In this document: piece after piece, positions 10,089 to 11,958 of the stretch | Position numbering within the stretch: position 1 is the stretch's first letter | Layout of the letters: the number at the start of each line of letters is the position of its first letter | Assembly: GCA_000961765.1 (NCBI GenBank) | Contig: LADT01000038.1 | Location: 1-33,890, forward strand | Reading direction: 5' to 3' | DNA: 33,890 nucleotides | Origin: Clostridiaceae bacterium BRH_c20a | Lineage (GTDB): Bacteria > Bacillota > Peptococcia > Peptococcales > BICA1-8 | Translations under genes and position numbers: made by a program | The notes under the pieces: model-generated | The model's database searches: none | Told to the model about the DNA's origin: nothing | The model's input: the letters and a program-made list of their open reading frames with translations, nothing else

Positions 10089-10586
10089 ATGGCCAAAGAT
10101 GAATCTTTTGATGTAGTTTCTGAAGTAAATATGCAGGAGGTTGATAATGCTGTAAATCAAACAAATAAAGAAATTAAGCAGCGTTTTGATTTCAAAAATA
10201 GTAAATCAGAGGTTAGTTTAGAAGAAGATAAAAAAGAAATAAAGATTATTGCTGATGATGACTTTAAACTAAGGAATGTCATTGATATTTTACAATCTAA
10301 ACTTATAAGAAGGCAAGTTTCCATCAAAAACCTGGAATATGGAAAAGTGGAGGAGGCTAGCGGTGGGACGGTTCGCCAGATAATAAAGGTACAACAGGGA
10401 ATAGAAACAGAATTAGCAAAGAAAATTGTTAAAGATATTAAAAACCTAAAAATTAAAGTACAGACCCAAATAATGAATGATCAGATTAGAGTATCAGGAA
10501 AAGCTCGAGATGACTTACAGGCTGTTATTAAATTTTTAAGAGAACAGGAATATAACATCGAACTGCAGTTTATTAATTACCGTTAA
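10089..10586 (+). CDS. yajQ: YajQ-family nucleotide-binding protein
   Basis: The 165 residues match the full length of the YajQ/UPF0234 family. Visible hallmarks are the opening [42 protein letters not shown], and the ending QVRVSG-like segment (here [16 protein letters not shown]) with LQFINYR. Some members of this family have been shown to bind cyclic di-GMP and act with transcription factors, and others have been linked to nucleic acid binding. AAGGAGG precedes the ATG. Its stop is 13 bases before the rdhA-like gene, which has its own GGAGG, so the two are probably one transcript. Whether it influences that protein is unknown. Confidence 0.95.
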
Positions 10587-10599
10587 TTTTGGAGGTAGA

Positions 10600-11958
10600 A
10601 TGTTGGTTAGTTTATTAGTATTTATGGGCTGGTTACTCCTGCTTGGAATAGTTATTTTATTGATTCTAATGGTGAAAACTTTACAGGTTGAAGGGGAAAC
10701 CAATAAAATACAAAGGCTTCTTTTCCCTCTGGTTCCATTATTGATAGTAAGTACAGCTATCTTAACTTTTGATTTTCCTTTTAAGGCTTATTTCCTTGTT
10801 TTTGGTGAATTGCTAGTATTAATAATATTCCTACTATTAATACTTCCTAATGGTGAAGTTATTACTCAGGATAACCCTTCTAGTTCAGGACAATTGGACG
10901 AGAGGGATATCATGTTTGCTAGGGCAAACTACCAGCAGGGAAATGAAAACTATCGAGATTATTACAGCCGAAACCCTCAACGAAAAGAAATTGATGATAA
11001 TATTCGTAGCATGCCTAATCTTTGCAGTCCAGGAACCTTTACTTACAATCCTTTGGATGCAGCTGTTGCAGATGCTGCTTTTGTTTTTTTGGGTGATATA
11101 CGCCATCTGGCTGAAGGAGAAATAAATTCCCAAAAGCTAGAGGTAGAATCTGAAAAAATAAGCTTAAGATTAAAAGGCTTGGCTCAATACTATGGAGCGA
11201 AATTAGTGGGTATTACTGAAATAAAGCCTTATCACTATTACTCACACAGAGGGCGGCATCCTGAGGTTTATGGAGAAAAAATAGATAAACATGACAGGTA
11301 TGCTATTGTTTTTGCAGTGGAGATGGATTATGAAATTATGAAGGGTGCTCCCCAAATCCAAGTAGTAGCTGAGTCATCACGGCAGTATATTGAAGGGGCA
11401 AAAATTGGGATGATGTTAGCTTATTATATTCGGCAATTAGGATATCATGCCCGTAACCACATGGATGGCAACTATCTGGTAGTTGCTCCTTTATTGGCGC
11501 AAGATGCGGGATTAGGAGAAATAGGCCGCATGGGAATCTTGGTTACTGAAGAATTTGGGCCTCGGGTACGACTAGGTGTTGTTACTACTGATTTGCCCGT
11601 GATACCGGACAAACCAGTTGATTTTGGCGTGCAAAATTTCTGTATTATATGTAAAAAGTGTGCCCAGACCTGTCCTTCTCAGGCTATACCCCACGGTGAT
11701 AAGGAAAAAGTTGGCGAGATAAAAAGATGGAAAATCAATCAAGAAAGCTGCTATACCTTCTGGCGGAAAGCGGGAACAGATTGTGGTGTTTGCATGAGCA
11801 CCTGTCCCTACAGTAAGCCAAATACAATTTTACATAAATTTGTTCGCTTTAGTATCCGAAGATCCCAATTTGCTAGAAAAATGTTTCTGCTTTTAGATGA
11901 TTATATATATGGCAAAAGACCGTTGTCACTTAAGAAACCCAAATGGATGGAGTTGTAA
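10600..11958 (+). CDS. Membrane-anchored reductive-dehalogenase-like corrinoid/iron-sulfur protein
   Basis: The 452-residue protein starts with three hydrophobic helices (about 3-25, 40-57, 63-83) and has no Tat twin-arginine signal. An RdhA-type region follows: LDERDIMFARANYQQG near 100, SHRGRHPEVYG near 215, and the conserved GLGEIGRMGILVTEEFGPRVRL block near 306-327. At the C-terminus are two ferredoxin-like cluster motifs, C348/C351/C354/C358 and C384/C395/C398/C402. RdhA enzymes reductively remove halogens using a corrinoid and two [4Fe-4S] clusters. Here the anchor is fused rather than supplied by RdhB, and no rdhB, rdhC or CprK-like regulator is nearby. Epoxyqueuosine reductase QueG shares the fold but is shorter and soluble. 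Substrate and cobamide binding are unproven. Confidence 0.8.
   Translation: MLVSLLVFMGWLLLLGIVILLILMVKTLQVEGETNKIQRLLFPLVPLLIVSTAILTFDFPFKAYFLVFGELLVLIIFLLLILPNGEVITQDNPSSSGQLDERDIMFARANYQQGNENYRDYYSRNPQRKEIDDNIRSMPNLCSPGTFTYNPLDAAVADAAFVFLGDIRHLAEGEINSQKLEVESEKISLRLKGLAQYYGAKLVGITEIKPYHYYSHRGRHPEVYGEKIDKHDRYAIVFAVEMDYEIMKGAPQIQVVAESSRQYIEGAKIGMMLAYYIRQLGYHARNHMDGNYLVVAPLLAQDAGLGEIGRMGILVTEEFGPRVRLGVVTTDLPVIPDKPVDFGVQNFCIICKKCAQTCPSQAIPHGDKEKVGEIKRWKINQESCYTFWRKAGTDCGVCMSTCPYSKPNTILHKFVRFSIRRSQFARKMFLLLDDYIYGKRPLSLKKPKWMEL

Follow-up and report, generated by a model that had tools for sequence, protein, structure and literature searches.

Canonical respiratory RdhAB systems have a Tat signal and an adjacent rdhB, whereas the locus at 10600-11958 of the window, the 33,890-nucleotide stretch of DNA analyzed here, encodes an RdhA-like protein with neither, which raises the question of what reaction this protein catalyzes, on which side of the membrane it works, and which donor supplies its electrons. 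Hybrid putative RDases with three transmembrane helices, an EXE motif, no Tat signal and no rdhB have been described (Atashgahi 2019, PMC6797604), and none had been shown to be functional as of PMC9303371. Such proteins are widespread, and the questions about their orientation, electron donor and role date from 2019. The window gene is a further member of this published, uncharacterized class: it shares the three N-terminal helices, the EXE motif in loop 1, the lack of a Tat signal and of rdhB at the locus, the two FeS motifs and a length of about 450 aa. An earlier sequence-only reading of this DNA had pointed to membrane-helix RdhA variants noted in genome surveys. It differs in its origin, as the published table names Bacteroidetes, Deltaproteobacteria, Chloroflexi, an archaeon and candidate divisions, with no Bacillota seen among them, while the window genome is of the Bacillota type.

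A Fused rdh Gene with Neither Tat Signal nor Adjacent rdhB

The gene is an open frame with an ATG start, located 13 bases beyond the yajQ stop at 10586 (Table 1). Its product scores 178.8 bits against the RDH profile TIGR02486, above the curated cut-off of 160.35, and stays below the cut-offs of Pfam Dehalogenase (18.2 vs. 24.3) and of the QueG profile TIGR00276 (45.4 vs. 200). The TIGR02486 score and the presence of both cluster motifs bear out the earlier claim of an RdhA core with two four-cysteine motifs. Hydropathy segments at residues 5-23, 40-58 and 64-82 correspond to helices 2-30, 34-56 and 62-81 of the structural model described below, and neither the first 99 residues nor the 20 codons that precede the ATG in frame contain an RR, so that three membrane helices do stand in place of a twin-arginine signal. 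A Tat signal missed because of a wrongly placed start, a possibility raised in the same reading, is ruled out, since the upstream frame holds no RR; moreover, a GGAGG stands 4 nt before the ATG used here. No rdhB, rdhC, CprK or corrinoid gene was found among the window genes examined. The earlier statement that RdhB is lacking thus holds for the locus but not for the genome, which carries a separate canonical rdhABC cluster on another contig (C62).

Table 1. Features of the fused gene and its product, in window coordinates
Feature	Position	Strand	Basis
Hybrid reductive dehalogenase (membrane-fused RdhA-like), 452 aa	10600..11958	+	ORF, profiles, AlphaFold2 model
Ribosome-binding site GGAGG, 4 nt before ATG	10591..10595	+	sequence
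TM1, residues ~2-25, related to RdhB TM2	10603..10674	+	hydropathy, model, profile comparison
Loop 1, residues 26-40, Lys/Arg-bearing, predicted cytoplasmic	10675..10719	+	charge pattern
EXE motif EGE, residues 31-33, inside loop 1	10690-10698	+	alignment
TM2, residues ~41-57, in RdhB TM3 position	10720..10770	+	hydropathy, model, profile comparison
TM3, residues 62-81, no RdhB counterpart after EXE hairpin	10783..10842	+	hydropathy, model
DERD motif, residues 100-103, where the catalytic module common with soluble relatives starts	10897..10908	+	alignment
Catalytic Tyr263, aligned with a Tyr conserved in PceA and NpRdhA	11386..11388	+	invariant in 82/82 relatives
Catalytic Arg324, position of NpRdhA K488 and PceA Arg	11569..11571	+	invariant in 82/82 relatives
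First [4Fe-4S] motif, C348-x2-C351-x2-C354-x3-C358-P	11641..11676	+	motif, alignment
Second [4Fe-4S] motif, C384...C395-x2-C398-x3-C402-P, extra upstream cysteine C384	11749..11808	+	motif, alignment
Quinone-site-like helices: K406, H412, R416, D433, Y437	11815..11910	+	profile alignment to 8q4h, model

A Catalytic Module Very Probably of the Dehalogenase Type

A single genome scan gave 80 named loci, which together with the window protein and L034 make up a set of 41 fused and 41 soluble proteins. The fused proteins come from Bacteroidota, Chloroflexota, Chlorobiota, Calditrichota, Gemmatimonadota, Acidobacteriota, Actinomycetota, Zixibacteria, a Dethiobacter MAG and others, and the soluble ones, of about 354 aa, mostly from Clostridia, with Thermotogota. 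Throughout the set, the catalytic Tyr and Arg as well as all eight FeS cysteines are invariant (82/82).

An AlphaFold2 model built with 38 fused relatives (alignment A2) reached a pLDDT of 92.7 and a pTM of 0.90. Its top Foldseek match is DhPceA (8q4h_A, E 1.7e-20), and DALI-like Z scores are 38.8 to NpRdhA, 37.1 to DhPceA (351 residues, 89-452) and 15.4 to QueG. The best structural match, NpRdhA (4ras, 6zxu), is cytoplasmic, as predicted for the window protein, but it is soluble, bears a duplicated domain at its N terminus and a reductase at its C terminus, and has a Lys (Lys488) where the window protein has an Arg. DhPceA2B2, a menaquinol:organohalide oxidoreductase (8q4h, PMC10624902), shares with the window protein the catalytic fold, FeS clusters, Tyr/Arg pair, quinone-site residues and EXE motif; in contrast, the window protein is a single polypeptide with no Tat signal, predicted to face the cytoplasm rather than the P-side. 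We also considered and rejected QueG as an identity, on the profile and Z scores given above and on a tree that separates the QueG-like rows with a starred support of 99. Tree, model and catalytic pair, which the sequence-only reading had proposed as checks, therefore agree on a cobamide RDH fold, placed outside the QueG clade and equipped with the Tyr and the Lys/Arg expected of PceA and NpRdhA. Taken from its fold, cofactor motifs and catalytic residues, the protein is very probably a dehalogenase-type cobamide reductase; cobamide binding is predicted from the fold match, and a halogenated substrate would be the default by homology.

An RdhB-Like Anchor, Predicted to Be Turned Over in the Membrane

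Each of the two glutamates of the EXE motif is kept in 40 of the 41 fused proteins. Across these proteins, Lys and Arg average 3.46 in loop 1, 0.46 in loop 2, 0.39 in the N-terminal stretch and 2.37 in the segment following TM3; loop 1 exceeds loop 2 in every protein (41/41), and the overall charge pattern is N-out/C-in in 40/41. This pattern makes it likely that the catalytic domain lies on the cytoplasmic side, as had been guessed from the window sequence. A Rieske-style insertion of a later helix by Tat was considered and rejected, RR being found in the TM2-TM3 loop of 0/41 proteins; within loop 1, RR occurs in only 12/41, and the window protein is not one of them.

In the cryo-EM structure of DhPceA2B2, RdhB carries its EXE motif in the P-side loop that joins TM2 to TM3. 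Compared with this RdhB, the window protein lacks one of the helices that precede the EXE loop and has an additional one behind it. The EXE loop of RdhB bears 0.3 Lys/Arg per 19 residues (ten sequences, several of them close copies) vs. about 3.5 in the fused proteins. Using hhalign, the stretch from TM1 to EXE of the fused proteins aligned with that from TM2 to EXE of RdhB with a score of 33.7, against a maximum of 20.9 in 60 block shuffles and 14.2 for the reversed control. The alignment indicates that the anchor is derived from RdhB at least in part, and the simplest reading would then be that the EXE hairpin has been turned over in the membrane relative to RdhB. The earlier account of three helices with no RdhB at the locus is accordingly kept and refined: helix 1, together with the EXE motif, is recognizably RdhB-like.

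Quinone-Site-Like Residues Accompany the Anchor

The menaquinone of DhPceA sits between two C-terminal helices, with residues K489, H495, R499, D515 and Y520 (PMC10624902). By profile alignment to 8q4h, K489, H495, R499 and D515 have their counterparts in the window protein in K406, H412, R416 and D433, respectively, with the same spacing as in the published site, and Y437 falls one residue off Y520, the DhPceA numbering being taken from this alignment together with the paper. None of the 41 fused proteins departs from H412, R416 or Y437, D433 is likewise invariant in 38/38 (alignment A2), and the H, R and D positions hold other residues or gaps in the 41 soluble relatives. The Tyr at the last position is kept in 23 of these 41 soluble proteins, so that this residue alone is not diagnostic. 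At L039, no anchor was readable in the frames checked, and a Gln replaces the quinone-site His.

The soluble DERD-type RdhA proteins of Clostridia and Thermotogota (e.g., L072, L085 and L094) share the DERD motif, catalytic residues and clusters with the window protein, at no more than 59% identity over the 304 columns used for the tree, but have no transmembrane helices, no EXE motif and a different C terminus that lacks the H-x3-R...D set. The anchor thus occurs along with the EXE motif and the quinone-site residues, or all three are missing, suggesting that they form one functional unit. As a caution, the same quinone-site residues are conserved in RDases of quinone-free bacteria (PMC10624902), and we regard quinol as a plausible electron donor, with about even chances.

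The Window Protein Groups Beside the Soluble Family

The tree was built on the 304 catalytic columns only, excluding the C-terminal trait. It joins the window protein as sister (100/90) to the soluble clade, which is itself supported at 100/98, and the Dethiobacter fused protein is the next out (99/91); fused and soluble proteins together are set apart from the Tat-type and classical RDase rows at 92/95, not starred. The window protein would thus be the closest fused relative of the soluble clade among those found here, grouping beside the soluble Bacillota/Thermotogota proteins instead of within the main hybrid clade. A clade of all fused proteins appears in 0% of bootstraps, yet it is not rejected by an AU test (p 0.2). 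The tree therefore favors a loss of both anchor and quinone site on the way to the soluble clade but does not prove it.

A separate EXE-type membrane ORF is absent at all named fused loci, and a separate RdhB-like ORF, sought close to the soluble relatives, was found at 0/41. No gene neighborhood of the fused genes is conserved across phyla, and the clusters that do recur, ABC transporters among them, are generic or limited to close relatives. In the Dethiobacter MAG (L066, 1321-12462), the fused gene begins 17 bp after a LivF-like ABC transporter gene and is directly followed by genes for FchA-like, FtcD, HutI and HutU proteins (histidine degradation). Another contig, from genome G292, carries a tandem pair of genes for soluble RdhA-like proteins of about 380 aa with a YDE[RH]DN start (L147, 3527-5859), along with Tat-type rdhA genes.

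Proposed Mechanism and Its Alternatives

Our preferred reading, to which we give a probability of roughly 0.6, is that the window gene encodes a hybrid reductive dehalogenase facing the cytoplasm, probably fed by quinol, with a cobamide, two [4Fe-4S] clusters and a three-helix anchor. The protein would insert into the membrane without Tat, with its N terminus outside and its catalytic domain on the cytoplasmic side. Quinol would bind at the inner leaflet, with the EXE hairpin on one side of it and the two C-terminal helices (H412, R416, D433 and Y437) on the other, and pass two electrons through the two FeS clusters to the cobamide, which, with Tyr263 and Arg324, would strip the halide from a substrate located in the cytoplasm or the inner leaflet. 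As quinol site and catalytic site would both be on the N-side, the reaction itself would build no proton-motive force, and the enzyme would serve as an electron sink, in detoxification or in carbon release, rather than forming the outward arm of a redox loop; energy would not be conserved.

More tentatively, and with odds somewhat short of even, this reading may extend to the class: hybrid RDases would be inside-out versions of PceA2B2, free of Tat, with the EXE hairpin flipped and both quinol oxidation and dehalogenation in the cytoplasm, and the soluble clostridial RdhA family would have arisen from an anchored ancestor by joint loss of the anchor and quinone site. If the inside-out arrangement is true, organohalide reduction can be tied to the membrane for purposes other than respiration, and a quinol-linked dehalogenase needs no Tat export. 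The charge statistics, the comparison with RdhB and the co-occurrence of anchor and quinone site make the questions of orientation, donor and role specific and cheaply testable, and the soluble sister family offers a natural control with neither anchor nor quinone site.

The main weakness of a quinol-fed mechanism is that a complete menaquinone pathway was not found in the host genome. Family searches of this genome found a cobalamin synthase and two MenA prenyltransferases, and none of MenB, MenD, MqnA/D and MqnC above cut-off. The quinone might then come from a scavenged precursor, possibly dihydroxynaphthoate, or another donor may be used. The latter would fit an enzyme of the same class and topology that receives electrons from a cytoplasmic donor, ferredoxin or flavodoxin, its helices only anchoring it near hydrophobic substrates and its C-terminal residues being structural or proton-conducting. 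Proteins of the soluble sister clade must take their electrons from a soluble donor, and quinone-free organohalide respirers also keep the quinone-site residues (PMC10624902); against this, the joint presence of anchor, EXE motif and quinone-site residues in fused proteins, and their joint absence from soluble ones, suggests a single functional unit, and we consider a soluble donor rather improbable, if the most serious of the alternatives.

Somewhat less probable still is an RDH-fold cobamide reductase acting on a non-halogenated substrate. QueG performs other chemistry on the same fold, no halogen-related gene is conserved in the neighborhood, and in the Dethiobacter MAG the fused gene lies between a LivF-type gene and FtcD, HutI and HutU genes. 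The Tyr and Arg of dehalogenation are nevertheless invariant, and the protein falls within the RDH profile and not within QueG.

Far less likely is an outward-facing respiratory RDase, resembling PceA2B2 on the P-side, whose C-terminal domain would be exported by an unknown route. This would accord with the P-side EXE loop of RdhB and with the 2019 survey, where TMHMM calls on hybrids are mixed and place the C terminus on the exoplasmic side for many (Atashgahi 2019, PMC6797604). It conflicts with a positive-inside pattern that runs the opposite way in all but one fused protein, with an EXE loop richer in Lys/Arg than that of RdhB, and with the absence of a Tat motif before TM1 and of RR between TM2 and TM3.

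The Fused Gene in Its Host Genome

Within the searched class, the fused gene occurs in the host and in one other genome of the same family, G003, and is full length in no genome other than the host. At the matching locus of G003, which has the same gene order, only a frameshifted C-terminal remnant is left (L153, G003:C113, 7201-7431), and the yajQ gene, HD-GAF gene and Cache histidine kinase gene of the window are missing as well. The gene is therefore dispensable there. This remnant and the restriction to two carriers could suggest that the window gene, too, is decaying or marginal and has no important role, but its frame is full length, its catalytic residues are all intact and a ribosome-binding site is present, so that we give this explanation a slighter chance than even the outward-facing one. 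Lastly, the notion of a misnamed relative of QueG (epoxyqueuosine reductase), for which weak QueG similarity and the lack of any QueG above the TIGR00276 cut-off in the host genome could be cited, is refuted by profile, tree and model.

The host has two further rdh loci. Contig C62 (L151, 892-8356) carries a complete canonical rdhABC cluster, with genes for an MtbC-like corrinoid protein, an MtaA-like methyltransferase, a histidine kinase and an NtrC-type regulator (the latter two named by eye), a Tat-type rdhA, an rdhB with an EGE motif and an rdhC/NosR-like gene. Contig C81 (L152, 9969-11240) encodes a third RdhA, with a score of 244.8 bits and no Tat signal. Given rdhABC on C62 and the Tat-less RdhA on C81, the fused enzyme supplements the ordinary rdh system of its host and does not replace it. 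On C62, the corrinoid protein and methyltransferase genes form a pair immediately upstream of rdhAB. The RdhA gene on C81 is flanked by genes, named by eye, for tandem tripartite tricarboxylate transporters, AOR-like aldehyde oxidoreductases and a DASS-like transporter, and the region looks like an island for halo-acid uptake and catabolic dehalogenation.
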